A stretch of 64,000 nt of DNA. It comes from Bombilactobacillus bombi (GTDB lineage: Bacteria; Bacillota; Bacilli; Lactobacillales; Lactobacillaceae). Below the pieces are notes generated by a model. It saw only the letters and a list, made by a program, of their open reading frames with translations, was not told the DNA's origin and made no database searches. The translations under genes and the position numbers were made by a program. Every line of letters begins with the position of its first letter. The stretch's first letter is position 1. The DNA is taken from positions 1,116,001 through 1,180,000 of the forward strand of contig NZ_CP031513.1 of NCBI RefSeq assembly GCF_003522965.1. Reading direction: 5' to 3'. Below are positions 22,911 through 40,383 of the stretch, one piece after another.

Positions 22911-25802
22911 TTAAGGTGCATCTTTCAAGGTGTAAGTGATAGTACTATGGTATTGCTTACCATAATGCAGCCAAGGATACACAGTATTTAAATTTAACTT
23001 AGCTTTATAAGTCCACGGATAATCAATTCCTGAATTACTGGTAGTACTATAAATAACTTGTGGTGACTTTGTTAAAGTTATGGCCTTATTGCTATCATAC
23101 AAAACAATATGGGCAGATAATATATCTTGATCAGTCTTCAAATCAGTGGCAGCTGCCATTACTTGCCAAAATTTACCATTATGACCATAACGGCGATCTA
23201 AGACTTTATAAGTTTGGCTTTGACCGTTATTAAATTCGTAATTAACATTATTAGTTAATGTCGCTTTCAAATCAAATTTTTGCGGATATTCAACCAAACT
23301 CAATCCCGCCGCAATTGGTTGCCAAATCCAAGTTCTAATCTTAGTAGGTTGATTAGAACTTCCATAAACAAAGTACGTCAAATCATAAGATGAATGAGTA
23401 TCCCCACTCGGATTTATTTCTTTTTCATTGGATTTTACTTCCTGCCATTTACCAGTACTAGCGGTAATATAACTATGATTTAATTCAGTATGAGCATTCC
23501 CAGTTTCATCATCAGGAAACAGCGACGGAAAATCACTATTTACAGGAACTTCACTCAAGGTCACACTGTTTTGTGATTTAGCAGTTGGACTTAAAACTAC
23601 ATTAGTTCCCAAAGTCATCTTCCACAAACTATTATCATATGCAAGCATACTGTCATTATCTGCCTGCCGTAAATTTAAATGACTTAAATCTAAAGTTTGT
23701 AAATTATTACAGCCCAATAAAGCTTGCTTAGCATTTATTAATTTATCCGAATCATCATTATTTAAAGTGGCTTTTTGTAAGTTACCATCATAAATAAACA
23801 TCCCTTCGATTGTCGTGGCGTTTTTCATATGCCAATTTTCTATTCCCTGCACTTCTTGTAAATGACGACAACTTGCAAACATCAAGCTAAAATCAGTTAC
23901 ATTAGACACATCTATATCTTTAGTGGTGACCGCTTCTAAATCGTCATCGTAAGCAAACATGGACTTCATATTAGTAATTTGAGCACCGTTAAAGCTGGAC
24001 AAATCGAGGTTTTGAAGCTTTTTACAGGAGCCAAACATTCCTTCCACATCAGCCACCTTAGCAGCATTCCATTGATCAGTTCCTGTAATTGAAACCAAAT
24101 TCTCACAGCCAAAAAACATGTAGCGCAAGCCTCTAGTGATTTCTGTTTGTGAATCCGAAGAAGTCGACAAAGTATTATTGACCTTGGAAATATCAAAGCC
24201 TTGCAAATTTAGACTTTTTAAGTTGCTATCATAGGCAAACATATATGACATGTTCTCAGCACTAGGAGTTTTCCAATTTTCAATTCCTTTAATTTCCTCT
24301 AGCTTATTGCAAGCATAAAACATCTTACTAAAATCTTTAATATTTTTCGCATCAAAGCCCTTCGTATTCACTACTGTTAAAGCACTATCCCCTGCAAACA
24401 TTAAACTCATATCTGTGACATTAGAAACATCAAAATTAGTTAAATCTAATTTTCCCAAGTTCGAATCATAAGAAAACATATTATTCATATCTTGAGCAGC
24501 AGAAGTAGTCCAATTATCTAGACCATCAATTGCCGTTAATTTACTACAGCCAGTAAACATTTGACTAAAATCAGTCACCTTATTTACTTGAAATTGGGAA
24601 ACATTCAGGCTTTGTAAAGATTCATCTTGATCAAACATATGTGACATGTCTTTGGCATTGGGGGTCGTCCATTGGTCTAAGCCTGTGATAAGCTCTAACT
24701 TATTGCAACTAGCGAACATTGTACTGAAATTAGTGACTTGTGAAACATCCCATTGAGAAACATCGAGATGAGCGATAGCCCGATCATAAGAAAACATATT
24801 CGACATATCAAGAGCATTTTTAGTATTCCAATTTTCTATGCCCTCGATTGTAGTTACTGCTTTACAACCATTAAAAACTGCATAGAAATTTTGAACATGG
24901 GAAACATCAAAGTGGCTAACATTAATTGTTTGTAAAGATTCATCTTGATCAAACATATTTCTGATTTCTAACAATTTAGAAGAGGCATTTGGACTGTAGA
25001 AATGTCTTAAATCCAACGTCTTTAACAGTGGACATTTTTGAAACATTGCGACCATCGACTCAGCTGCAGGAGTTTGCCACTGATCTAGACCTTTAATCTC
25101 AGTTAAAGCATCACAGCCGGAAAACAGATAATCAAAATTAACAACTTTATCCACCTTAAATCCAGCTAAATCTAGAGTTGTTAAACTTTTATCACTACTA
25201 AACATACTACGAAGATCTGTCACATTAGAAACATCTAACTTATCCAATCCTGATATTGACGTTAAATTTGTCATTCCTGAAAACATATATGAAGTATTGG
25301 TAAAGTTAGCAATTTTATCTTTAATATTTACTTGTGTGATCTCTTCCAGATGGTCTTTCCAAGGCCACGATTGATTATCATTGATATTAGTTGGCTGTTT
25401 TAAGGCATCGGTTATTGTTAATACACCTTTATCATCAAGCGACCACCCTGGTCCACTAGCCGGAGTAGCTCGGACTAATCGAGCTATCGGAATTGGTTTA
25501 GTTAAGGTAGTAAGTACCGAGATTGACGGTTGGGTTTTGGGCAATTGGGTTAATTGACTAATAGCAGGTAAAGTTTTATCAGTAGCAATTATGATAGACG
25601 AATCAGATTGTACTTGTGCTTTCACAACGATATTTGAAACAGGACACCAATAATATACGAAGAACCCTATTAAAAAGAAAAAAAACTTCCAAAAATCAGA
25701 TTTCATCATTATCAATGAGGAAAGTATTTTTGGGAGAGAAACTGACCAATTAGTCATGATAAGATGATTATAATTAGTAGTTCGCGGTCGTTCATCTGAC
25801 AT
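22911..25802 (-). CDS. BspA-like leucine-rich-repeat surface protein
   Basis: This is a secreted or wall-associated protein of 963 aa. The start is ATG 25802, 6 bases after GAGGAGG; an in-frame ATG at 25817 lies upstream of that site. An unusually long N-terminal region precedes a hydrophobic segment (WKFFFFLIGFFVYYW), the likely secretion signal. From about residue 100 to 720 there are about 18-20 repeats of the DUF285/BspA type, with alternating phrases such as MFSGMTNLTSISGLD and LDVSNVTDMSLMFAGD. The last 230 residues are beta-rich and end STITYTLKDAP, resembling the terminal motif of WxL domains, which bind peptidoglycan non-covalently. No LPxTG motif is present. Adhesion to host or other cells is the usual role of the family. 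Confidence 0.85.
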   Translation of the reverse strand: MSDERPRTTNYNHLIMTNWSVSLPKILSSLIMMKSDFWKFFFFLIGFFVYYWCPVSNIVVKAQVQSDSSIIIATDKTLPAISQLTQLPKTQPSISVLTTLTKPIPIARLVRATPASGPGWSLDDKGVLTITDALKQPTNINDNQSWPWKDHLEEITQVNIKDKIANFTNTSYMFSGMTNLTSISGLDKLDVSNVTDLRSMFSSDKSLTTLDLAGFKVDKVVNFDYLFSGCDALTEIKGLDQWQTPAAESMVAMFQKCPLLKTLDLRHFYSPNASSKLLEIRNMFDQDESLQTINVSHFDVSHVQNFYAVFNGCKAVTTIEGIENWNTKNALDMSNMFSYDRAIAHLDVSQWDVSQVTNFSTMFASCNKLELITGLDQWTTPNAKDMSHMFDQDESLQSLNVSQFQVNKVTDFSQMFTGCSKLTAIDGLDNWTTSAAQDMNNMFSYDSNLGKLDLTNFDVSNVTDMSLMFAGDSALTVVNTKGFDAKNIKDFSKMFYACNKLEEIKGIENWKTPSAENMSYMFAYDSNLKSLNLQGFDISKVNNTLSTSSDSQTEITRGLRYMFFGCENLVSITGTDQWNAAKVADVEGMFGSCKKLQNLDLSSFNGAQITNMKSMFAYDDDLEAVTTKDIDVSNVTDFSLMFASCRHLQEVQGIENWHMKNATTIEGMFIYDGNLQKATLNNDDSDKLINAKQALLGCNNLQTLDLSHLNLRQADNDSMLAYDNSLWKMTLGTNVVLSPTAKSQNSVTLSEVPVNSDFPSLFPDDETGNAHTELNHSYITASTGKWQEVKSNEKEINPSGDTHSSYDLTYFVYGSSNQPTKIRTWIWQPIAAGLSLVEYPQKFDLKATLTNNVNYEFNNGQSQTYKVLDRRYGHNGKFWQVMAAATDLKTDQDILSAHIVLYDSNKAITLTKSPQVIYSTTSNSGIDYPWTYKAKLNLNTVYPWLHYGKQYHSTITYTLKDAP

Positions 25803-25985
25803 AATGAACCTCCTCATAACTCTAAAATAATTTTTGAAATAAAAAATTTATATTTAAAACTGTAGAAAATGCTTTATTAAAAAGACATCTTTATTATTTT
25901 AAAGTCACTTTAAGTCTATTATATCATTATAAAAACTTAATAAATAAATATTTTTTTCTTAAATAATTCCCCTTATACAAAAAAT

Positions 25986-26024: not shown

Positions 26025-27176
26025 TTAATGATTTACAGTGAATTTTTGCCAAAAAGCGCGGGCAAATTTTTCATAAAATTTACATCCTAATAAATATTTA
26101 TCAATAGAAACAAATTCGTTAGGTTGATGATCCGTTGTACCATCAGCTGGTCCCACAATAATAATCGGTAAATTAAGGACATGATGATATTCAGAAGCAT
26201 CTGTAGCACCCATGCCTGCTGTCAAATCACCTTGCAATTGAAATTGTTCTTGCAAAACTTGACTAGCTAATTGTGCTAATGCGGTTTGCCCTTGGTTTGG
26301 CAATGGCGGTTCGGGATAACTATAAGTAATCTTTAATTGTGCTCCTTGTGAATTTAAATGGTGCACAATGTCATCTAATTGCTGCATTACTAACTCATTG
26401 GGATAAGCGGGAATGGTCCTAATATTTCCTGTTAACCAGGCATGTGCTGGCACAGTATTAATTTGTGCACCTCCTTGGATTTGACTCACTACATGGGTTA
26501 ATGAACCTAAGATTTCATCTACTTGATTATCTTGACTTAAAGTTATTTGTGCCTGATGCACAAACTCTACTAATGGTAAAATTGCGTTTTTACCTAAACT
26601 AGGCTGCGAAGAATGCACACTTTTACCTAGTGATTCCACTCTATAATCAATAACTCCCTTGTGAGTCACTCGAATGTGCAAATCAGTAGGTTCGCCAATC
26701 ACTAAGCCTTGTAATTCACTAGCATAACCAGCTTCGGTCAATTGTGCAGCTCCATATTCACCGGTTTCTTCACCGACAGAAGCTAATAAACGAATCCGTC
26801 CGTCTAAAGGCTGTTTACCATCTAGCAAATCTAACATTGCCACTACCATGGCAGCTAAGCCCGACTTCATATCACTAGCGCCTCGCCCATAAAGCTTGCC
26901 ATCTTTCATAGTGGCAGTAAAGGGGGGATAATCCCAATCTTTACTAGAATCAACAGCTACTACATCTTCATGCCCAGAAAAACCTAACAAGGGACCATGA
27001 TCACCAATAGTCACCACTAAATTGTCACGTCCAGGTGCATAACGGACACGTTGAATCTGTGCTGGATAACCCGCGAATAAATCAGCTAAATAATCAGCCA
27101 CTTGTGCTTCTTGGTCATTAATTGAAGGAATCGCAATTAAATCTGATAAAATTTTTAGAGCTCGTGTTTTTTCCAT
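26025..27176 (-). CDS. ArgE/DapE-family metallopeptidase (M20)
   Basis: This is a 383-aa zinc hydrolase removing acyl groups from amino acids or cleaving small peptides. The metal-binding motifs are LLGFSGHEDVVAVD (His and Asp near 75-80), GRGASDMKSGLAAMV (metal Asp), and SVGEETGEYGAA (catalytic Glu-Glu). A late His is in TDHQPNEFVS. The dimerisation domain has RVTHKGVIDYRVES and HSSQPSLGKNA. It could be succinyl-diaminopimelate desuccinylase or an acetylornithine-type deacylase; no lysine or early arginine biosynthesis genes flank it. It follows the glnQ-type ATPase by 9 bases, so it is probably cotranscribed with the amino-acid importer, suggesting it processes an imported compound. Confidence 0.85.
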   Translation of the reverse strand: MEKTRALKILSDLIAIPSINDQEAQVADYLADLFAGYPAQIQRVRYAPGRDNLVVTIGDHGPLLGFSGHEDVVAVDSSKDWDYPPFTATMKDGKLYGRGASDMKSGLAAMVVAMLDLLDGKQPLDGRIRLLASVGEETGEYGAAQLTEAGYASELQGLVIGEPTDLHIRVTHKGVIDYRVESLGKSVHSSQPSLGKNAILPLVEFVHQAQITLSQDNQVDEILGSLTHVVSQIQGGAQINTVPAHAWLTGNIRTIPAYPNELVMQQLDDIVHHLNSQGAQLKITYSYPEPPLPNQGQTALAQLASQVLQEQFQLQGDLTAGMGATDASEYHHVLNLPIIIVGPADGTTDHQPNEFVSIDKYLLGCKFYEKFARAFWQKFTVNH

Positions 27177-27185
27177 ATTAACCCC

Positions 27186-27947
27186 CTAAGCTTCCAAAAT
27201 CTTTGCTAAAAAGTCTTGTGCCCGTTCCGTTTGTGGATGAGCAAAAAATTCTTGCGGGGAATTAGTTTCTTGAATATAGCCATCAGCCATAAACCAAACT
27301 TGGTTGGCAACATTCTTCGCAAAACCCATTTCATGAGTTACTACCACCATGGTCATTCCTTCAGTGGCCAAATCTTGCATAACCTTTAAAACTTCACCAA
27401 CCATTTCGGGATCTAAAGCAGAAGTTGGCTCATCAAAAAGCATAACCTTGGGATTCATCGCCAAAGCCCGCGCAATGGCAACCCGTTGTTGTTGTCCTCC
27501 TGACAAGTTATTAGGAAAAGCTTCTGCCTTGTCTGCCAAACCAACTTGTTGGAGTAATTTTTGCGCTAATTGAGTTGCGTCTTCTTCCGTCATCCCTTTA
27601 ACTTTCATCGGGGCCAGTTTTAAATTTTCTAAGACACTTTTATGTGGAAACAGATTAAAATTCTGAAATACCATTCCCATTTGTTGCCGCAATTGATCTA
27701 AATTTTGGTCATCTAAAGCCGTCAATTCATCGCCTTCAAAAAAGACTTTCCCAGCAGTGGGTTTATCGAGAAGATTTAAACATCTTAAAAAGGTACTTTT
27801 GCCGGCACCAGAAGGTCCAATTAAACAAATTACTTGCCCATCATAAACATTTTCACTGATATCTTTTAATACTTCATTTTTACCAAAAGTTTTCTTTAAG
27901 TGTTCAACTGCAATCACTGGTGTTGCTTTTTCTTCATTATTATTCAT
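27186..27947 (-). CDS. glnQ: polar amino acid ABC transporter ATPase
   Basis: This is a 253-aa ATPase of the glutamine/polar amino acid uptake class. Walker A is [18 protein letters not shown], the Q-loop is [16 protein letters not shown], the signature is [18 protein letters not shown], and Walker B is [16 protein letters not shown]. The start chosen is ATG 27947 after AAGGAAG; it overlaps the end of glnPH by 8 bases (ATGAATAA), typical translational coupling. An in-frame ATG at 27965 lies before that site. Confidence 0.93.
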
Positions 27948-29448
27948 GTGACATCTTCCTTTCAAAGTGTTTCATTAACCGTGAAATTCCAAAAGTAATA
28001 ATAAAGTATAAAATCATCGTAATCACTAATGGCATTACACCCCGATAAGTATCAGCTTGTACAATCTTGGATTGATAAATTAAATCTTTTACCCCAATAA
28101 CTGAAACAATAGAACTTTCCTTAATTAAAGAAACAAATTCATTACCCAAAGCCGGCCAAATATTCTTCATTGCCTGTGGCAAAATAATATATTTCATCGT
28201 CATTGATCTGGACATCCCTAAAGAACGCGAAGCTTCGGTTTGTCCTACTGGGATTGAATTAATACCTGAACGGATAACCTCAGCCACATAAGCCGCTGAA
28301 TTCAACGATACCGCAATAATTCCGGACAAAAGCGCAGGAATATTAACAACTAGCCCTAAACCAAAGTAAACAAACAATAATTGAACCATTAAAGGTGTGC
28401 CCCGAACAAATTCAATATAAGCTGTAGCAATTCCAATTGCCACCTTACTATGACTCAACCGCATCAAAGCTAAAATAATCCCAAGTAAAAAGCCGAAGAA
28501 TACTGAAATAGCTGAAATAAAGATGGTATAGCCTAAACCGGCAATAAAGAAGTCTTTATAAGCCCACATTGAATTACTGGATTTAGCTGCTGCTTTTTTA
28601 TTTTTATTAGCTTTAAAACTGCCGGTAGTCATATACTTACCTGCTTCAGGTAGGTATTTTTTATTGATTAAATTTTTAGCTTTAATTTCTGTAATGGATT
28701 GATTAGCTGCATTTACTAACGATTGTGCCCCTTTAGGAAAAGCAATAGCGGTCCCCGGAACTTTAATTTTGAATTTTGCATCTACCGCCGTTAAACCATT
28801 GGTATTATTCGCATAAGCCTCCGCTGAAGCCTGATCTAAGACTACGGCTGCTACTTTGTGCGTTTGCAAAGCTAAAATTAAATCTGTAATCTTATCCATA
28901 CCTTTTAACGTGGACTTTTTAGCTTGATTTTTAACTAAGTTATATTGAATAGATCCTGTTTGTGCCCCAACACCTTGGCCGGCTAAATCTTTATAGGTCT
29001 TATATTTACCCTTGTCACCTTCATGGATAACCATATACATCCCACCATGAAAATAAACATCACTGAAATCAACACTCTGAGCCCGTTTAGCTGTCTTACT
29101 CATCCCAGCCATGGCCATATCAATTTTGCCCGTTTGTAAAGCGACCAGTAAAGAATCAAAATCCATGGACTTAACAACTAATTTCACACCCAAATCTTGA
29201 GCGATTTTTTTGGCAATGGCGACATCCATTCCTACAATTTTGGACTTACCATGAGCCATAAACTCATAAGGGGGAAAGTCAGGACTTGTCCCCATAACTA
29301 AAGTTCCCTTGTCTTTAACCTTCTGTAAATATTGATCATTAGCTGGTGGAACATTATTGTCAGCTGCTTGTACTAAAGTAGTACCCAAACTACTAATAAA
29401 GAAAACTGTTGCTAATATAACTGTTAGCCATTGCCGAAATTTTTTCAT
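27940..29448 (-). CDS. fused substrate-binding protein and permease (GlnPH-type)
   Basis: This single 502-aa chain combines the two non-ATPase parts of a polar amino acid importer. It has a signal peptide ([18 protein letters not shown] ... VQA, residues 1-28) and a type-3 solute-binding domain (about 45-275: [48 protein letters not shown]). The permease domain follows (about 300-500), with the EAA loop [27 protein letters not shown]. This fusion is common in lactic acid bacteria. The substrate may be Gln, Glu, Asn, Arg or another polar amino acid; it cannot be fixed here. The transcript starts with a leader carrying a short peptide and two terminators. Confidence 0.92.
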
Positions 29449-29540: not shown

Positions 29541-29577
29541 AAATAAAAAAGAGGAAGCCCACAATGAGGCTTCCCCG
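29541..29577 (-). terminator. second leader terminator before glnPH
   Basis: On the minus strand GGAAGCC pairs with GGCTTCC across an ATTGTG-type loop and is followed by TCTTTTTTATTTTT. It lies about 90 bases before the glnPH start, downstream of the first terminator. The same arrangement occurs before trpX. Confidence 0.85.
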
Positions 29578-29587
29578 GTTAACCAAA

Positions 29588-29622
29588 GAAAAAGCCTGCA
29601 TGTGAGAATCCATGCAGACTTA
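29588..29622 (-). terminator. first leader terminator before glnPH
   Basis: On the minus strand GTCTGCATG pairs with CATGCAGGC around GATTCTCA and is followed by TTTTTCTTTG. A block of about 38 bases including this hairpin is identical to the one at 34213-34250 before trpX. Confidence 0.88.
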
Positions 29623-29640
29623 GCTATTACAAGAGAATGA

Positions 29641-29710
29641 AGTCGGCATGAACACGAACTGACGTCTCAGGTCGCATCCATCCAAAACGGAATCAACCCG
29701 AGTGTTACCG
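29641..29710 (-). ncRNA. conserved structured leader element (copy A)
   Basis: This is the region between the leader-peptide stop and the first terminator. It shares long identical stretches with copy B at 34261-34332, including GGATGCGACCTGAG, CAGTTCGT and TTCATGCCG, all read on the minus strand. The stop-codon region (AGCCGGTAA) can pair with the downstream CATGCCG, and GGGTT can pair with GACCT, suggesting a folded RNA. It is not a T-box by eye, since I found no TGGNACCGCG. Function as part of an attenuator is inferred. Confidence 0.55.
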
Positions 29711-29755
29711 GCTTCGCAGGCGGATATTCAATTGTGATAAATATGAATTAATCAT
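29705..29755 (-). CDS. leader peptide before glnPH (16 aa)
   Basis: ATG at 29755 is preceded by AAGGAGAAAGG. The peptide is MINSYLSQLNIRLRSR, ending AGC CGG TAA. It is the counterpart of MINSNVQLNARWQSR before trpX. The shared frame (MINS...QLN.R..SR*) and strong ribosome binding sites argue that both are translated. The variable codons just before SR (CTG CGA here) may be what the ribosome senses; this peptide holds three Arg codons. Confidence 0.7.
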   Translation of the reverse strand: MINSYLSQLNIRLRSR

Positions 29756-29791
29756 TGCCCTTTCTCCTTAACCTTGTCTAATTAGTTTTTA

Positions 29792-29820
29792 ATTTTACGG
29801 GAAGTGAATGATTCTGTCAA
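29792..29820 (-). promoter_or_regulatory. promoter of the glnPH leader
   Basis: TTGACA (29820-29815) is 17 bases from TAAAAT (29797-29792), a near-consensus promoter about 35 bases before the leader-peptide start. Confidence 0.85.
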
Positions 29821-29957
29821 GCATTTTTTGAATTTAAAATAATAATTAAAAGTATTTTACAATCTAGTTTGCTTGGAACAATACCAAAGATTAGCCCCCA
29901 TTAGTAACTTATCTTAAGATTTAACGTGTTTCTAAATTCGAGGGTAATATATGTAAC

Positions 29958-29990
29958 AAGTCATCTTCAGTAGTATTTGAAGATGACTTA
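29958..29990. terminator. terminator after the aldehyde dehydrogenase gene
   Basis: A perfect 12-base inverted repeat (AAGTCATCTTCA around GTAGTATT) lies about 12 bases past the dehydrogenase stop on the minus strand. The T tract is modest. Confidence 0.7.
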
Positions 29991-30000
29991 AAATATTTAC

Positions 30001-31365
30001 TTAAGGTTTTAAAACTAAATGTTGATTGACAAAAGCATCAATTCCTAAATCACTCAATTCCCGACCATATCCAGAATTCTTGATACCGCCAAAAGGCATA
30101 TCGGGTGTAGACGACCAGCCAGCATTGATGAAGGACATCCCTGTTTCAACTTGTGCTGCTACTTTTTCTGCATGCTGTAAATCACTTGAGAAAACAGTCC
30201 CACCTAAGCCATAGCTGGAATCATTGGCCAATTGGATGGCTTCTGCTTCATTTTGTACACGATATACGGAAGCTACTGGACCAAATAATTCTTGATTAAA
30301 AATTGGATTATCATGACTAATATCCGTTAAGATAGTAGGTTGGAAGAATTGTCCTGGCAAGTCTACTGGTTCGTTACCGTAATAAACTTTAGCACCTGCG
30401 GCCACAGCTGTATCAACTTGTGCCTGTAATTTTTCTTTGGCGCTCTTTGAAGATAGTGGTGCTAAAGTTGTAGTTTCAGCCATAGGATCACCCATTTTCA
30501 CTTGACTGAAAGCTGTCTTTAACATTTCTAAGAATTGATCATACATACTATCCATCACAATAAAGCGCTTGGAAGAGGTGCAAACTTGTCCCGCATTAAA
30601 TAAACGAGCTTGCGGTACAACTTTTTGTAGTTCATCCCAATTTGCATCATCTAAAACAATAAAAGCATCATTACCACCTAATTCTAAGGTTGACTTCTTT
30701 AAATTTTGACCTGCAGTAGCAGCAATTGATGTTCCTGCTCGTTCAGAACCAGTTAAGCACACACCCGCAACTCGTGGATCAGCAATCGCGGTAGCTACTT
30801 GATCATAATTAATAAATAAGTTAGTCAAAGTCCCTGCGGGTGCACCTGATTCTGCGACTAAATCTGCAAACATTTGAACAGACATTGGACAAATAGAAGC
30901 AGATTTTAAAATCATTGGATTTCCAACCATAATATTAGGAGCTAAGACTCGCATTACTTGATATAATGGGAAATTCCACGGTTCAACAGCAACAATCACC
31001 CCAGTTGCTTGTTTTAGATAATAAGCATCACCAAATTTAGTTTTTAGAGGTACAGGTTGCAATAACTCTGCTCCATGTTCGGCATAGTATTGGGCAATCC
31101 AAATACATAAATCTACTTCGCCTTGAGCTTCTGTTAATAACTTTCCCATATCATAAGTCATAGCTCGAGCTAAGTCGTCGCGCTTTTTTTGCATTAAATC
31201 AGCAATATTTTGTAAGATTTTGCTCCGACTTTCTGGCTTTTCTTGGCGCCATTGTTGATATAATTGATGACCTGTCGCTAAGGCCTGCTCTAAATCAGCA
31301 TCGGAAGCATTAGGATATTCTTTTAAAGTTTCATTTGTATATGGATAAATAGTTTTATAAGCCAT
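30001..31365 (-). CDS. NAD(P)-dependent aldehyde/succinate-semialdehyde dehydrogenase
   Basis: This is a 454-aa aldehyde dehydrogenase. The catalytic Glu is in LELGGNDAFIV (about residue 230) and the catalytic Cys in FNAGQVCTSSKRF (about 265). The cofactor-binding phrases VEPWNFPLYQ and GVCLTGSERAG are present, as is the C-terminal PFGGIKNSGYGRELS. Its length and sequence fit the GabD-type short group often annotated as succinate-semialdehyde dehydrogenase. It stands alone between two amino-acid transporters. AAAGGAGAG precedes the ATG. A weak cre-like sequence lies about 90 bases upstream. Confidence 0.88.
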   Translation of the reverse strand: MAYKTIYPYTNETLKEYPNASDADLEQALATGHQLYQQWRQEKPESRSKILQNIADLMQKKRDDLARAMTYDMGKLLTEAQGEVDLCIWIAQYYAEHGAELLQPVPLKTKFGDAYYLKQATGVIVAVEPWNFPLYQVMRVLAPNIMVGNPMILKSASICPMSVQMFADLVAESGAPAGTLTNLFINYDQVATAIADPRVAGVCLTGSERAGTSIAATAGQNLKKSTLELGGNDAFIVLDDANWDELQKVVPQARLFNAGQVCTSSKRFIVMDSMYDQFLEMLKTAFSQVKMGDPMAETTTLAPLSSKSAKEKLQAQVDTAVAAGAKVYYGNEPVDLPGQFFQPTILTDISHDNPIFNQELFGPVASVYRVQNEAEAIQLANDSSYGLGGTVFSSDLQHAEKVAAQVETGMSFINAGWSSTPDMPFGGIKNSGYGRELSDLGIDAFVNQHLVLKP

Positions 31366-31455
31366 TGTTACTCTCCTTTATTTACACCAAAATTACAATC
31401 CTTGGTACGACCGCTAAAACAATTGTTGCGTACCAATTCTATTCTTATTATATGA

Positions 31456-31469
31456 TGCAAACGCTTAAA
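31456..31469. promoter_or_regulatory. weak cre-like sequence before the dehydrogenase
   Basis: TGCAAACGCTTAAA matches the CcpA site at most conserved positions but has two mismatches. It is a candidate only. Confidence 0.3.
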
Positions 31470-31499
31470 AGTAACTAATGATGCTTGTTAATCAACTAA

Positions 31500-32264
31500 C
31501 TATTCTTGAAAATAATCATAAAGCTGCTGGGCAGTTAGGGCCTTTTTAGCAGGTCCGCTAAAGTCAGCTTGAATTTGTCCTTGACTTAAAACTAATAAAC
31601 GATTGCCATATTGCAGCGCATCTTCTAATTGATGAGTAATCATCAATGCAGTTAAATTATCCGTTTGAATGTGCTCATTGGTGGCTTGCATTAATGTCGC
31701 ACTAGTATGTGGATCTAAAGCTGCTGTATGTTCATCAAGCAAGATAATATCAGGACGTTTTAAAACAGCCATTAAAAAACTCAAAGCTTGTCGTTGTCCT
31801 CCGGATAAAGATCCTGTCGCTGTATCTAAGTGAGTTTCTAAGCCGTTATTCATTGTTGTTGCTAACTCATGAAAATGATTTAAATGCTGCTTTAAATGGC
31901 GTGGCCGCAAAGTCCGATGTTCACCACGTTTCGTGGCTAATAACAAATTTTCTGCGACTGTCATTCGAGGAGCAGTACCCATTTTAGGATCTTGAAAAAC
32001 ACGACTGAGAAATTTAGTATGTTGTTCTTCTGACATTTTGGTAATATCTTTTCCGTTATGCAAAATCTGCCCGGCATTTACTGGCAGTAGGCCACTAATC
32101 ACATTAAACAAAGTTGATTTACCAGCTCCATTAGTTCCCACTAAGGTAATAAAATCACCTTGATTAATTTGTAAATTGATGTGCTTTAAAATTGTGGTTT
32201 CTTGTGCAGTACCACGATTAACAACTGTACTAACATTTTTTAACTCCAAAATTGGCTTAGTCAT
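31500..32264 (-). CDS. ABC transporter ATPase (TrpZ-type)
   Basis: This 254-aa ATPase belongs to an importer of the TrpXYZ class. Walker A is GTNGAGKSTLFNVISG, the signature region is TGSLSGGQRQALSFLMAVL, and Walker B is IILLDEHTAALDP, with His in place of the usual Pro in DEP. HQL is the switch. It overlaps the permease gene by 8 bases. In related bacteria this class imports tryptophan or other aromatic amino acids. Substrate assignment relies on the family and on a Trp codon in the leader. Confidence 0.88.
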   Translation of the reverse strand: MTKPILELKNVSTVVNRGTAQETTILKHINLQINQGDFITLVGTNGAGKSTLFNVISGLLPVNAGQILHNGKDITKMSEEQHTKFLSRVFQDPKMGTAPRMTVAENLLLATKRGEHRTLRPRHLKQHLNHFHELATTMNNGLETHLDTATGSLSGGQRQALSFLMAVLKRPDIILLDEHTAALDPHTSATLMQATNEHIQTDNLTALMITHQLEDALQYGNRLLVLSQGQIQADFSGPAKKALTAQQLYDYFQE

Positions 32265-33156
32265 AATGGCGCACCCCTTTTAACAAAGTAGTTTTTAAGC
32301 GTAAATGTTTTTCTAATTGCGGCAGCATCATACAAATAGCCAAGACTAAAGAAGACAATAAATTTAAATCATTAGCATTAAATCCAAGCTGCAAGACGGC
32401 CAATAATAATAGCCGATAAACAATACTTCCTAAAGTCACCGCAATAAGGCGTTGGTTTAAAGTTAGCTCGCCAAAAATCACTTCCCCAATAATAATTGAT
32501 GCTAAAGCAATTACAATAGTACCAATACCCATATTAATGTCGGCGTAACCATTGCTTTGAGCAATCAAAGCTCCACAAACACCAACCAAGCCATTAGAAA
32601 TCATTAATCCCATAATGACCATGCTGTCAGTCTTGATTCCTAATGATTTGGCCATTTGGTCATTATCACCAGTAGCAATAAATGCTTGTCCCCATTGTGT
32701 TTGCAAGACAAAAATCAAAGCTAAGGTAATCACTAAGATAATTATCATCCCGACTATGACACTATCAAAATATTGTGGTAATCCTTGTAAAAATTTGCCG
32801 CTAAATAACGTTTTTTGACCTAATAACGATATATTGGATTTACCCATAATGCGCAAGTTAATCGAATATGCGGCTGTCATTACCAAAATTCCAGCTAGTA
32901 AACTGGGGATTTTGCCTTTGGTATATAGTAGACCTGTAATCAATCCTGCTAAAACGCCCACTCCAAAAGCTAATAATGTAGCCATTATAGGAGACACGCC
33001 ATGTGTTATAGCTGTCACTGCTGTAGCAGCTCCTAACGGAAAAGTTCCCTCAACTGTCATATCTGCAAAATTTAAAATCCGAAACGTTAGATACAATCCT
33101 AATCCTAATAATGCCCATAAAAGGCCTTGGCCAATGGCCGAAACTACTAAATTCAT
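32257..33156 (-). CDS. ABC transporter permease (TrpY-type)
   Basis: This 299-aa membrane permease has about eight to nine hydrophobic segments and resembles the BPD_transp_2 group. Phrases are GLGLYLTFRILNFADMTVEGTF in the N-terminal part, LLAGILVMTAAYSINLRIMG, and the cytoplasmic loop TGDNDQMAKSLGIKTDSMVI, which contacts the ATPase. It overlaps trpX by one base (TAATG) and the ATPase by 8 bases, so the three genes are a tight operon. Confidence 0.88.
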   Translation of the reverse strand: MNLVVSAIGQGLLWALLGLGLYLTFRILNFADMTVEGTFPLGAATAVTAITHGVSPIMATLLAFGVGVLAGLITGLLYTKGKIPSLLAGILVMTAAYSINLRIMGKSNISLLGQKTLFSGKFLQGLPQYFDSVIVGMIIILVITLALIFVLQTQWGQAFIATGDNDQMAKSLGIKTDSMVIMGLMISNGLVGVCGALIAQSNGYADINMGIGTIVIALASIIIGEVIFGELTLNQRLIAVTLGSIVYRLLLLAVLQLGFNANDLNLLSSLVLAICMMLPQLEKHLRLKTTLLKGVRHYD

Positions 33157-34148
33157 TATTTAATAACCTCCCCTTTAGTTTGTGCTTCTTTTAAGAAGCG
33201 TTTAGGTACCTGCAAGCCTAATTTTTGGGCTTGCTTTAAGTTAACTACCGGATCTCCATGGCGCACATATTCAATCGGTGTGGTAGCTGGTTGCTTTTTA
33301 CCCTGCAAAATTGCTGCTGTTAAGTGTCCTCCAATAATGCCTAATTTGTATTGGTTAATACTATAAGTAGCTACGCCACCTTGTTTGACCATGGTATCCA
33401 CAGCAGGAAAAACTGGCTTGTGTACAGCATCTGAATTTTTCACTAGCGTCTGCATCGCTCCTGCAATCACATTATCTGCAGGTACAATCACAGCATCTAC
33501 ATGTTGCAACATCTCTTGGGAAACTTGATTCAAATCATTGCTGTTGGCAATTGAATATGATTTGAGAGGGATTTTCATTTCGCGAGCTTTTTGGACGATT
33601 AACTTGTGCTCAGCTACAGCCGAACTATCACTAGAAGTATAAATAACGCCCAAAGTCTGCAAATGTGGTAAGAATTCTTTAATTAACCGTAACTGATCGG
33701 CTACAGGTGATAAGTTTGAAACACCCGTAATATTACCGCCTGGGCGCTTAAAATTATGAACTAAGCCGGCAGCCTTAGGATCTGTGACAGCTCCCAACAC
33801 TAAGGGGATTTTTTTAGTGGCATTGGCAAGTGACTGTGAAGCGGGAGTCGTAATTCCTACTACAACGTTGGAATTTTCATTAACTAATTTGGAGGCCATA
33901 GTTTTCAGATTACTTTGATCACCTTGAGCATTTTGATAATCAATATCCACATTCTTGCCATTGTGATAACCCTTTTGTGCTAATCCCGCCGTAAAACCTT
34001 CTTGAATTTGATCTAATGCGGGATGATGCATCAAAGTTAAGACACCCACGCGCGGTTTAGCTTGCGCATTTAGCTGTCCACCTTCATTAAAAAAGGCAAC
34101 TACTAAAAATGCTGCTAGAATTCCAATTAATGCTACCATTCTTTTCAT
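33156..34148 (-). CDS. trpX: ABC substrate-binding protein (TrpX-type)
   Basis: This 330-aa exported binding protein has an N-terminal hydrophobic signal (MVALIGILAAFLVVAFF) and lacks a lipobox Cys, so it is either secreted with an uncleaved anchor or processed after NAQA. The PF04392-type fold shows in RVGVLTLMHHPALDQIQEGF, NVVVGITTPASQSLANAT, IPLVLGAVTDPKAAGLV and VIVPADNVIAGAMQTLV. It heads the operon with the permease and ATPase. Upstream lie a consensus promoter, a leader peptide with one Trp codon, a structured element and two terminators, which implies attenuation control. Tryptophan as substrate is inferred. Confidence 0.87.
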   Translation of the reverse strand: MKRMVALIGILAAFLVVAFFNEGGQLNAQAKPRVGVLTLMHHPALDQIQEGFTAGLAQKGYHNGKNVDIDYQNAQGDQSNLKTMASKLVNENSNVVVGITTPASQSLANATKKIPLVLGAVTDPKAAGLVHNFKRPGGNITGVSNLSPVADQLRLIKEFLPHLQTLGVIYTSSDSSAVAEHKLIVQKAREMKIPLKSYSIANSNDLNQVSQEMLQHVDAVIVPADNVIAGAMQTLVKNSDAVHKPVFPAVDTMVKQGGVATYSINQYKLGIIGGHLTAAILQGKKQPATTPIEYVRHGDPVVNLKQAQKLGLQVPKRFLKEAQTKGEVIK

Positions 34149-34173
34149 TTTATTATTCCCATCCTTTCCAAAA

Positions 34174-34205
34174 TAAAAGAGGAGCCCACAAGAGGCTCCT
34201 CTTTA
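34174..34205 (-). terminator. second leader terminator before trpX
   Basis: On the minus strand AGAGGAGCC pairs with GGCTCCTCT around TCTTGTG and is followed by TTTATTTT. It lies about 25 bases before the trpX start. Confidence 0.87.
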
Positions 34206-34214
34206 AAAAAACAA

Positions 34215-34250
34215 AGAAAAAGCCTGCATGTGAGAATCCATGCAGACTTT
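34215..34250 (-). terminator. first leader terminator before trpX
   Basis: This is the same hairpin as at 29588-29622 (GTCTGCATG/CATGCAGGC with loop GATTCTCA), followed by TTTTTCTTTG. The identity extends over about 38 bases. Confidence 0.88.
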
Positions 34251-34260
34251 AAAATTATGG

Positions 34261-34332
34261 AGATTAGCCGGCATGAATACGAACTGAAACCTCAGGTCGC
34301 ATCCATGACGGAATTAACCCAAGTTACCGGCT
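34261..34332 (-). ncRNA. conserved structured leader element (copy B)
   Basis: This is the homologue of copy A at 29641-29710. Here AGCCGG at the leader stop codon pairs perfectly with CCGGCT downstream of CATG, closing a domain. That domain contains GGGTT/GACCT and a CTGAGGTTTCAG stem-loop. Because the stem uses the last codons of the leader peptide, a ribosome there would open it. Function is inferred. Confidence 0.55.
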
Positions 34333-34371
34333 TTGCCAACGAGCATTTAACTGTACATTTGAGTTAATCAT
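34324..34371 (-). CDS. leader peptide before trpX (15 aa)
   Basis: ATG at 34371 follows GGGAGAA. The peptide is MINSNVQLNARWQSR and ends AGC CGG TAA. The single Trp codon (TGG) lies four codons before the stop and aligns with a Leu codon in the glnPH leader. With a Trp-type transporter downstream, stalling at TGG is an attractive regulatory signal. Confidence 0.72.
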   Translation of the reverse strand: MINSNVQLNARWQSR

Positions 34372-34405: not shown

Positions 34406-34434
34406 ATTATAAAGACAAAAGCAATACTTGTCAA
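34406..34434 (-). promoter_or_regulatory. promoter of the trpX leader
   Basis: TTGACA (34434-34429) and TATAAT (34411-34406) are separated by 17 bases, a perfect consensus promoter. High initiation with downstream attenuation fits the two terminators. Confidence 0.92.
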
Positions 34435-37787: not shown

Positions 37788-39008
37788 ATGGCAAAAGATA
37801 AAATCGTTTTAGCATATTCTGGCGGGTTGGATACTTCTGTTGAAATCGCCTGGTTGAAAAACAAAGGTTATGATGTCATTGCTTGTTGTATTGACGTTGG
37901 TGAAGGTAAAGATTTAGAAAAAATCAAAGAAAAGGGCTTGGCAGTTGGTGCTGTAGAATCTGTGGTCATCGATGCTAAAGAAGAATTTGCCCAAGAATAT
38001 TGCTTACCGGCTTTACAAAGTCATGCTTATTATGAAGACAAATATCCTTTAGTTTCAGCGTTATCAAGACCTCTCATTGTTAAAATTTTAGTCGAAGTTG
38101 CCAAAAAGTATGGTGCCGTTGCGATTGCCCACGGCTGCACTGGTAAAGGTAATGATCAAGTACGTTTTGACGTTGGTATTCGGGCCTTAGCACCTGAAAT
38201 GAAAATTGAAGATCCTATTCGTGAAACTCATTGGTCACGAGAAGAAGAAATTGATTACGCCAAAGAAAATGGGATTCCTGTACCAATTAATAAAAAAAGC
38301 CCCTATTCGATTGACGAAAACCTTTGGGGAAGAGCTAACGAGTGCGGGATTTTAGAAGATCCTTGGGCTAGTGCTCCCGCAGATGCTTATGACCGCAGTG
38401 TTGATATTAAAGATGCTCCCGATGAACCCGAAATTATCACAATTAGTTTTGAGCAAGGTGTACCAGTCAAATTAAATGACGAAAAATTATCACTGGCTAG
38501 TTTAATTATGAAACTAGATAAAATTGCTGGCAAACATGGTATTGGCCGAATTGATCATGTGGAAAATCGTTTGATTGGTATTAAATCACGCGAAATTTAT
38601 GAATGCCCTGCAGCTACAGTTTTATTAACTGCTCACAAAGATATTGAAGATATCACATTAGATAAAACTTTAGATCATTTTAAACCTATTGTAGAAAAAG
38701 AAATTGCCGAATTAATTTATAATGGACTTTGGTTCTCACCGTTAATGGATAGCTTGTTGGCTTTCATTAAAACCAGCCAAAAAGACGTCAATGGTATTGT
38801 TCGCGTTAAACTCTTTAAAGGAAATGTTATTTGTGAAGGCCGCAAATCACCAAACTCTTTATATGATGAGAAGCTTGCTACTTATACAGCAGCTGATGAA
38901 TTTGACCAAGAAGCTGCTTTAGGATTTATTAAACTCTATGGTTTACCAACACAAGTATATGCTCAAGTTCACCAAAAACAGGCAGGACAAAGCAATGGCC
39001 ACAAATAA
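37788..39008 (+). CDS. argG: argininosuccinate synthase
   Basis: The enzyme joins citrulline and aspartate using ATP, the penultimate step of arginine synthesis. It has 406 aa. The ATP pyrophosphatase loop [15 protein letters not shown] is at residues 9-23, with [17 protein letters not shown] at about 110-127 and [14 protein letters not shown] at about 170. The length is normal. The preceding GAATGGAGTGAG supplies the ribosome binding site. argH overlaps its end by 14 bases. No other arg genes are in view, so citrulline must come from elsewhere. Confidence 0.96.
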
Positions 39009-40383
39009 ACTTTGGGGGGGCCGTTTTGAAGCCAGTGGTGATGAAAATATTGATGCTTTTGGCGCTTCCATTAACTTTGACCAGCTTATGGCTGCTGAAG
39101 ATTTGCAAGGATCATTGGCCCATGTGGAAATGTTGCAAGACACCAATATTATCCCTGAAACTGATGCTAAACAAATTATTCAAGGCTTAAAAAGCCTACA
39201 ACAACAACTAGCCACTGGTAAACTTAAATTTGATACTACTAACGAAGACATTCATATGAATATCGAAGCCCTTTTGACTAAAGAGATTGGACCTGTAGCT
39301 GGTAAACTGCACACTGCTCGCAGTCGCAATGATCAAGTGGCAACTGACTTTCATCTGTATCTCAAAAAGCGCTTGCCCAAAATCATTCAAACTATTCAAG
39401 AACTACAAAGAGTTTTAGTAACCAAAGCTGAAGCAAATATTGAAACCATCATGCCTGGTTATACCCATCTCCAACACGCACAGCCAATTTCTTATGGTCA
39501 TTATTTAATGGCATACTTTTATATGTTGCAAAGAGATGTAGAACGCTTTGAATTCAACCAACAACACACCAATTTATCACCTTTAGGAGCAGCAGCGCTA
39601 GCTGGTACTACTTTTCCAATCGATCGCCAACAAACAACTCGCAAGTTAGGATTTGATAAGCCTTACTCCAATTCATTAGATGCAGTGTCAGATCGTGATT
39701 TTGCGTTAGAATTTTTAAGTAATGCTGCGATTTTAATGGTGCATCTCTCACGTCTATGTGAGGAAATCGTTCTTTGGTCTTCATATGAATTTGGCTATTT
39801 GGAATTGTCCGATCAGTATTCTACAGGTAGTTCCATTATGCCTCAAAAAAAGAATCCTGATATGGCCGAATTAATTCGGGGCAAATCAGGACGTGTTTTT
39901 GGAGATTTATTCGGACTTTTGACAGTCATGAAGTCTCTGCCTTTAGCATATAATAAAGATATGCAAGAAGACAAGGAAGGTACTTTTGATGCGGTTAAAA
40001 CTATTATTCCCAGTTTAAAAATATTGGCTGGAATGTTGGACACTGCCCAAGTTAATTCTGAAAAAATGGCCGCAGCCACAGAAAAAGATTTTTCCAATGC
40101 TACTGAATTAGCAGATTACTTAGCAGTAAAGGGAATTCCCTTTCGCCAAGCACATGCTCTTGTTGGCCAATTAGTCCTAGAAGGTCTCAAAACTGGCGTA
40201 ACTTTGCAAGAAATACCACTCAGCAAATATCAAGAAATTATGCCTGAGATTGGCTCAGACGTGTATCATGATTTACAATCAAAAATTGCGGTCGAACGAC
40301 GGCAATCACTAGGTGGAACGAGTTTTGCTCAAGTCAAACACCAAATTGCTGAAGCTAAGAAAATTTTAGATAAAATTGATTAA
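38995..40383 (+). CDS. argH: argininosuccinate lyase
   Basis: The enzyme splits argininosuccinate to arginine and fumarate. It has 462 aa from ATG 38995 ([20 protein letters not shown]); the in-frame ATG at 38938 is deep inside argG and is not used. The superfamily signature is [16 protein letters not shown] (about residues 275-290), with the conserved [15 protein letters not shown] (about 105-119) and [15 protein letters not shown]. The 14-base overlap with argG gives translational coupling. A strong terminator follows. Confidence 0.96.

Follow-up and report, generated by a model that had tools for sequence, protein, structure and literature searches.

Two leaders before glnPH and trpX in Bombilactobacillus bombi as probable leader-peptide attenuators related to RF04312

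Enterobacterial attenuators of the trpL and hisL type combine a leader peptide carrying codons of the regulated amino acid with alternating RNA helices and a terminator. Here we describe two RNA leaders that share these traits, in a stretch of 64,000 nucleotides (nt) of the Bombilactobacillus bombi genome (contig NZ_CP031513.1, positions 1,116,001 to 1,180,000; hereafter the window): element A, upstream of glnPH, and element B, upstream of trpX. Unlike the trpL/hisL type, they have a longer ladder of pairings (0:1 to 6:7), a helix made by the tail of the upstream open reading frame (uORF), called P0, a single Trp codon in B, and two terminators apparently within one ladder. In Firmicutes, His leader peptides have been described before hisS/hisZ or his operons, Peptostreptococcaceae included (PMC9413887; Naville and Gautheret 2010, PMC2965389); the available parts of these reports draw no link to RF04312 or to Trp, Phe, Tyr or Leu leaders. 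RF04312, the "trpB motif", has been presented as a strong riboswitch candidate with unknown ligand in Firmicutes and Fusobacteria, its authors leaving room for a protein factor or a classic attenuator, and the accessible part of their paper does not mention a uORF (Narunsky et al. 2024, PMC11109978). With A and B it shares P1 and terminator, an antiterminator in the right shoulder of P1, and amino-acid importer and trpB genes; in the one literature library searched, we found no leader peptide or function assigned to it. In Streptococcus, the same gene and signal as in B are served by a tRNA-binding T-box of 461 nt, according to the available part of the source (PMC9382623), whereas B has no T-box match in Rfam.

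We propose that A, B and RF04312 are, very probably, transcription attenuators driven by translation of a leader peptide. Both window elements lie on the minus strand, and each consists of a near-consensus promoter, a uORF of 15-16 codons with a ribosome-binding site, the hairpin P1 and tandem terminators. They are 76% identical over about 200 nt (E 1.9e-32), with a longest identical run of exactly 38 nt over terminator 1 (from 29584 and 34212); their second terminators are unlike in sequence and alike in position. A reading of the same DNA made without database searches (the sequence-only reading) had described this common architecture, with consensus promoters, a 15-16 codon peptide, an identical 38-base surround of the first terminator, and a second terminator of different sequence in the same place. 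All of these parts were found, promoters and peptides as given in Table 1. The coordinates it gave for the elements were too narrow, as the promoter starts near 29820 and 34434 fall outside them, and it mentioned neither the strand nor the Trp codon, nor the helix of the uORF tail, nor a possible coupling of the terminators. Both BLAST and R1, a covariance model trained on Lactobacillaceae elements alone, find only A and B as strong copies in the genome (third R1 match, E 0.09). The likeness of A and B is not due to chance, because BLAST relatives at E <= 0.001 are present in 36 of 201 genomes sampled from the family, the source genome included. A weak R1 match inside trpX (33716-33828, minus strand, 23.6 bits, E 0.003) was taken as chance.

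At a relaxed threshold, B matches RF04312 with 49.7 bits (E 3.3e-6) and A with 30.3 bits (E 0.026), the cut-off being 59. Two Lactobacillaceae BLAST relatives of B exceed this cut-off (60.1 bits in genome G005; 86.6 bits in G045, locus L051). In the other direction, R1 recovers 40 of 59 RF04312 loci of other families and another order at E <= 0.01 and misses 19, and the window elements have the layout of RF04312, with P1 followed by a terminator and an antiterminator in the right arm of P1. On these comparisons we regard A and B as divergent relatives of RF04312, a bridge that we consider firm. The sequence-only reading had recognised no T-box or known riboswitch, and at gathering scores the window gives no match to a T-box or to any other Rfam family. 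It had also named a significant match to a known Rfam family as grounds for refutation and had suggested a covariance search. The search returned A, B and the RF04312 loci above, and the refutation is partly triggered by the two RF04312 matches; given that RF04312 had no known ligand or function, these widen the finding rather than refute it.

At E <= 0.001, RF04312 was found in 160 of 295 Lactobacillales genomes (52 over the cut-off), in 29 of 147 genomes of the order of genome G559 (none over the cut-off) and in five of 398 genomes drawn evenly from the phylum. Three of these five are trusted, leaving aside L050 and also L049, which reads as two plain terminators and is not convincing as a member. 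For comparison we used 203 elements, 170 of them picked from the matches listed for spread over genera, not all, and 33 being BLAST or A-type loci. They fall into three groups: Lactobacillaceae (44), other Lactobacillales (115) and the order of G559 (44). One element, L200, which precedes a gene presumably of TetR type, was treated as a false positive and excluded from the uORF test, and is kept in the sets of 203.

Of 167 nonredundant RF04312 elements, 165 have a uORF that ends shortly before P1. The rule behind this count (ATG, Shine-Dalgarno match of at least 4, 10-30 codons, stop within 48 nt of P1) was fixed after a first look at the leaders; 7.5% of 3340 dinucleotide shuffles and 4 of 133 sequence windows lying further upstream also pass it. 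By codon content, 118 of the uORFs belong to a Trp class, 25 to Phe/Tyr, nine to His and six to Leu, with seven unclassed, and typical peptide ends are RWQSR and WQNWRR (Trp), IHHHH (His), FFFSFFR (Phe), YYFNYYR (Tyr) and LLLLANLR (Leu). These codons match the genes behind them, which were clustered by BLAST and named from one representative per cluster. TrpX-like genes follow 143 of the 203 elements, and their leaders have Trp among the last ten residues in 140 cases and Tyr/Phe runs in three; the TrpB cluster has Trp in five of five leaders. An HHH-type leader precedes all eight genes of the HisS-like cluster (named by NCBIfam on one of the eight) and one HisZ-like gene, and this class may be the same elements as the published Firmicutes His attenuators, as far as the available parts of those reports go (PMC9413887, PMC2965389). 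Among Na+ symporters, 26 of 27 leaders are classed as Phe, Tyr or Leu, the remaining one (L081) having two Phe only. In the symporter tree, Leu leaders form one clade (100/100) and Tyr leaders another (90/91), and the leader labels need three changes against a shuffled mean of 12.5. Within the TrpX cluster, the three Tyr/Phe rows come from three families and form a clade separate from 39 sampled Trp rows, in a quick tree with L121 on a long branch; one of these proteins scores 336 against the TrpX cut-off of 390. Additionally, an aroE gene has the leader YYFSYFR. The window gene trpX itself scores 445.8 bits with NCBIfam NF041285 (cut-off 390), and judging from its leader peptide B most likely senses Trp via its single TGG codon. 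Thus an attenuator's uORF, with ribosome-binding site and codons of the regulated amino acid, is seen in the window, the amino acid being uncertain for A.

Helices were examined by covariation in 42 aligned Lactobacillaceae elements (alignment A1; the duplicates L043 and L119, and L121, were left out), alignment A2 comprising 41 elements (L115 also removed). P0, which joins the uORF tail to the stretch past P1, is 79.8% paired with 17 double-change cells (0 of 500 shuffles as high); P1 is 90.9% paired with 65 cells (0/500), the terminator 91.8% with 35 (0/500), the antiterminator 3:4 88.8% with 11 (1/500), and 1:2 88.3% with six (24/500). By the number of pairs that show double changes, the terminator is only slightly above shuffled (90/500). 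When partners are slid, pairing falls to 21-54%, a control that favours the proposed helices because the structures were drawn from B and the consensus. Partner permutation gave 0 of 2000 for each of P0, 1:2, P1 and 5:6 in all three groups and for 3:4 in Lactobacillaceae and the order of G559; 0:1 reached z -6.4 and -11.4 in the two Lactobacillales groups, and 33 control tests with unpredicted partners ranged from z -1.9 to 3.0. One element (L022) entered the permutation with a wrong ORF and was dropped from the second and third folding versions described below. Covarying base pairs, whose absence the sequence-only reading would have counted towards refutation, are present in P0, P1, 3:4 and the terminator, so that a mutually exclusive terminator and antiterminator, as in an attenuator, both covary.

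That reading had already suggested translation-coupled attenuation of amino-acid importers, and the gene-matched uORF codons and covarying alternative helices support it. The uORF, the codon-gene match and the helices come from comparison of elements; from these we infer stalling and readthrough. The segments would form a ladder in which P0, 0:1, 2:3, 4:5 and 6:7 compete with the alternative set 1:2, 3:4 and 5:6. With the amino acid plentiful, the ribosome would reach the stop codon, cover segment 1 there, and depart; after its release the uORF tail would pair past P1 (P0), P1 (2:3) would form, and terminators 1 (4:5) and 2 (6:7) would halt transcription. With the amino acid scarce, the ribosome would stall at the sensor codon, covering the P0 strand and sitting between segments 0 and 1, and segment 1 would stay free. 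Helix 1:2 could then form, leading 3 to pair with 4 as antiterminator, which would free segment 5 for pairing with 6, and the importer genes would be transcribed. The same design with Trp, His, Phe, Tyr or Leu codons would underlie RF04312. We lean towards regarding RF04312 as a single re-codable Firmicutes attenuator family, in which swapped uORF codons would set the specificity and a stalled ribosome would topple 1:2, 3:4 and 5:6 in turn, disarming two serial terminators.

Folding with a ribosome in place, its footprint assumed to reach from 18 nt upstream to 12 nt downstream of the first A-site base, is consistent with control by stalling for most elements, and for B in helix 1:2 only. In the third version of this model, RNA on one side of the ribosome could not pair with RNA on the other, and whichever of the first and last sensor codon did better was used. 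Moving the ribosome from the stop codon to the sensor codon then adds two or more 1:2 pairs in 198 of 202 elements (reverse in none) and raises the number of 3:4 pairs in 144 of 181 (reverse in two); relative to the ribosome-free state, 3:4 also increases in 144 of 181 elements (reverse in none). For B, the 1:2 pairs number 11.5 with the ribosome stalled, 2.6 with it at the stop and 0.3 without it. The corresponding values for A, which was unscored for 3:4, are 15.1, 6.7 and 14.8. The 3:4 pairs in the same three states are 8.0, 0.1 and 0.5 in L111, a relative of A, and 0.1, 1.4 and 0.0 in L110.

Several results weigh against the attenuator proposal as a whole. The folding rule was altered after the failure of B had been seen, and the outcome is clear only in the third version: with the footprint masked, the first version (scored on 3:4) gave 72 of 181, reverse three, and the second (scored on 1:2) 155 of 200, reverse four, B being flat in both. 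Even in the third version, 1:2 gains over the ribosome-free state in just 91 of 202 elements (reverse in two), and B forms no antiterminator 3:4 in any state in equilibrium folding. This is due to the very stable P1 of B, and its switch would therefore need to be kinetic. As for the helices, 1:2 has few double changes, and the number of pairs that show them does not exceed the shuffled level (231/500); in other Lactobacillales support for 3:4 is weak (48/2000), in the order of G559 there is none for 0:1 (z -1.4, 67/1000), and 5:6 rarely beats dinucleotide shuffles in single Lactobacillaceae elements (5 of 35 at p <= 0.05). Moreover, the permutation tests are uncorrected for kinship, the codon-gene match is partly confounded with taxonomy, neither A nor B reaches the gathering score of RF04312, and the meaning of the codons in A is uncertain.

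Other explanations of the same leaders deserve consideration. A ligand riboswitch, in which P1 and the conserved loop would bind an amino acid or a relative directly, is how RF04312 was published as a strong candidate, according to the available part of the report (PMC11109978), and P1 is well conserved. We nevertheless consider it very unlikely: at least five amino acids share one RNA fold and it is the uORF codon run that varies, the gene-matched uORFs sit upstream of the matched motif, and a binding pocket leaves the uORF-tail helix unexplained. An arrest peptide, with the nascent chain and free Trp rather than uncharged tRNA stalling the ribosome as in TnaC, would fit the ending [LV]N..WQSR with its single Trp codon, widely kept in Lactobacillaceae. 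In other Lactobacillales, however, the residue past the Trp varies among Q, R, H, N and K, leaders of other classes contain runs of the sensed residue, and P0 base pairing constrains the Ser-Arg codons; an importer switched on by excess Trp would also make little sense, and altogether such a peptide appears quite improbable. Finally, a T-box binding uncharged tRNA is suggested by trpX of Streptococcus suis, the same gene and order, which has a Trp T-box in the part of the source available (PMC9382623). Given that no T-box reaches the gathering score in the window and none is among the matches to E 10 in either leader, we attach next to no probability to it.

Within the attenuator proposal, the role of the second terminator and the amino acid sensed by A each have alternative readings. 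Our rule recovers terminator 2 from 35 of the 44 Lactobacillaceae elements, from 72 of the 115 other Lactobacillales elements and from 23 of the 44 in the order of G559. Complementarity between its left arm and the right arm of terminator 1 is frequent even as the sequences vary (AGGCT/AGCCT, CGGAC/GTCCG). If real, the 5:6 helix links the two, and one stalled ribosome could disarm both; on balance we infer such a coupling. Terminator 2 might instead be independent, for instance a fixed leakage limiter, its complementarity stemming from duplicated terminators. We take this as possible though not as our expectation: in the order of G559 terminator 2 often resembles a copy of terminator 1, the rule finds none in 9 of 44, 43 of 115 and 21 of 44 elements, and the shuffle tests on single elements are weak in Lactobacillales (15 of 72 outside Lactobacillaceae, against 20 of 23 in the order of G559), 5:6 alone being non-significant in both A (p 0.27) and B (p 0.94). 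On the other hand, the elements' own 5:6 pairs beat permuted ones in every group, and a fixed strong terminator would repress the gene even when induced. As to A, six A-type leaders were found, in four genomes of this genus, each with NIRLRS[RQ] and with CTG replacing TGG at the Trp position, and we read A as a derivative encountered in this genus alone. One precedes GlnPH in all four genomes, and one of these genomes has further A-type leaders before a second GlnPH-like gene and an OppA-type gene. Because CTG is rare (12 window ORFs contain 502 Leu codons, 3% of them CTG) and occupies the Trp position, Leu is a first guess for what A (RLRSR) perhaps senses. Arg (R-L-R-S-R) is the competing candidate, with three Arg codons in the uORF and, downstream, genes of a polar amino-acid importer type and an ArgE/DapE-family deacylase. 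It seems rather unlikely, in that RWQSR leaders have two Arg codons as well, CGA, with 16% of 118 Arg codons, cannot be called rare, CTG stands on the Trp position in all six A-type leaders, and an OppA-type gene lies behind one of them. The glnPH product gives no substrate-specific NCBIfam model above cut-off among the 25 matches listed. Its orthologues L243-L245, from three genomes of the genus, lack a leader of this kind and match no Rfam family at gathering score, and therefore say nothing about what A senses.

Control by leader-peptide attenuation has long been known, and the His leaders and the caveat of the RF04312 authors partly anticipate the attenuator reading. What is new is the assignment of RF04312, a specificity that can be re-coded, the helix formed by the uORF tail and, possibly, a coupling of the two terminators. 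If true, RF04312, with more than 900 members, would turn from a ligand hunt into a leader-peptide attenuator, and leader codons could tell what uncharacterised amino-acid transporters carry: Leu, Phe or Tyr in the case of the Na+ symporter clades, and Tyr/Phe in that of the clade near TrpX. A and B would catch a change of specificity between neighbouring operons in one genome, and one sensor working two terminators would be unusual wiring for attenuation.

Table 1. Features of elements A and B and of the genes behind them (window positions; MFE, minimum free energy)
Feature	Position	Strand	Basis
A promoter TTGACA-17-TAAAAT	29792..29820	-	read directly
A uORF, MINSYLSQLNIRLRSR, stop	29705..29755	-	NIRLRS[RQ] in six A-type leaders
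A candidate sensor codon CTG, at the Trp position of B	29717..29719	-	codon rarity
A segment 0, within uORF start	29745..29752	-	complementary to segment 1 by eye; group permutation
A P0 5' strand GAAGCCGG, pairs with 29639-29646	29708..29715	-	covariation
A segment 1	29689..29703	-	covariation; folding
A segment 2, P1 left arm	29666..29681	-	covariation
A segment 3, P1 right arm	29645..29662	-	covariation
A P0 3' strand CCGACTTC	29639..29646	-	covariation
A segment 4, terminator 1 left arm	29611..29621	-	covariation
A segment 5, terminator 1 right arm	29592..29602	-	covariation
A segment 6, left arm of terminator 2; its AAGCCT is the complement of AGGCTT in segment 5	29565..29576	-	
A segment 7, terminator 2 right arm	29551..29560	-	read directly; MFE
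glnPH-type fused binding protein/permease	27940..29448	-	Pfam
GlnQ-type ATPase, downstream of glnPH	27186-27965	-	
M20 deacylase, next downstream	26025-27176	-	
B promoter TTGACA-17-TATAAT	34406..34434	-	read directly
B uORF, MINSNVQLNARWQSR, stop	34324..34371	-	relatives' peptides end alike
B proposed sensor codon TGG (Trp)	34336..34338	-	Trp near end in 140/143 TrpX-like leaders
B segment 0, within uORF start, partner segment 1	34359..34368	-	permutation test; MFE
B P0 5' strand AGCCGG (Ser-Arg codons)	34327..34332	-	covariation; permutation
B segment 1, directly past stop codon, partner segment 2	34310..34322	-	covariation; permutation; folding
B segment 2, P1 left arm	34292..34307	-	covariation; RF04312 match
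B segment 3, P1 right arm and antiterminator 5' arm	34270..34287	-	covariation
B P0 3' strand CCGGCT	34266..34271	-	covariation
B segment 4, terminator 1 left arm	34239..34249	-	covariation
B segment 5, terminator 1 right arm	34220..34230	-	covariation; permutation
B segment 6, terminator 2 left arm, complementary to segment 5	34194..34204	-	group permutation
B segment 7, terminator 2 right arm	34176..34186	-	MFE
trpX, Trp ABC transporter binding protein	33156..34148	-	NCBIfam NF041285; Pfam
Permease, downstream of trpX	32257-33156	-	
ATPase, next downstream	31500-32264	-	

In the surroundings of element A, with its three Arg codons, lie genes at 37788-40383, a few kilobases away, which are presumably argG and argH-like. 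The importer cluster behind glnPH adjoins a 968-residue ORF (22911-25817, minus strand) with repeated LDVSNVTDMSxMF-like units, presumably of the BspA/DUF285 type.

Some leaders outside the window also merit mention. Five permease genes (L106, L211, L216, L220, L222; BPD_transp_2 in L220) have leaders that end in VVFNSQF[RI] or similar and carry no long codon run. Two BrnQ-type genes, nominally branched-chain (L086 and L090; L086 is over the TIGR00796 cut-off), have leaders with Tyr/Phe runs, which suggests an aromatic substrate for these carriers. The G045 relative of B (L051), whose RF04312 score is the highest among the matches listed, has a WQSR leader, and the longest ORF after it is a reverse transcriptase (Pfam RVT_1), not trpX, perhaps a group II intron inserted in the operon. 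Finally, genome G047, of the same genus, has two Trp leaders (L253, L259), each before its own trpX-like gene.

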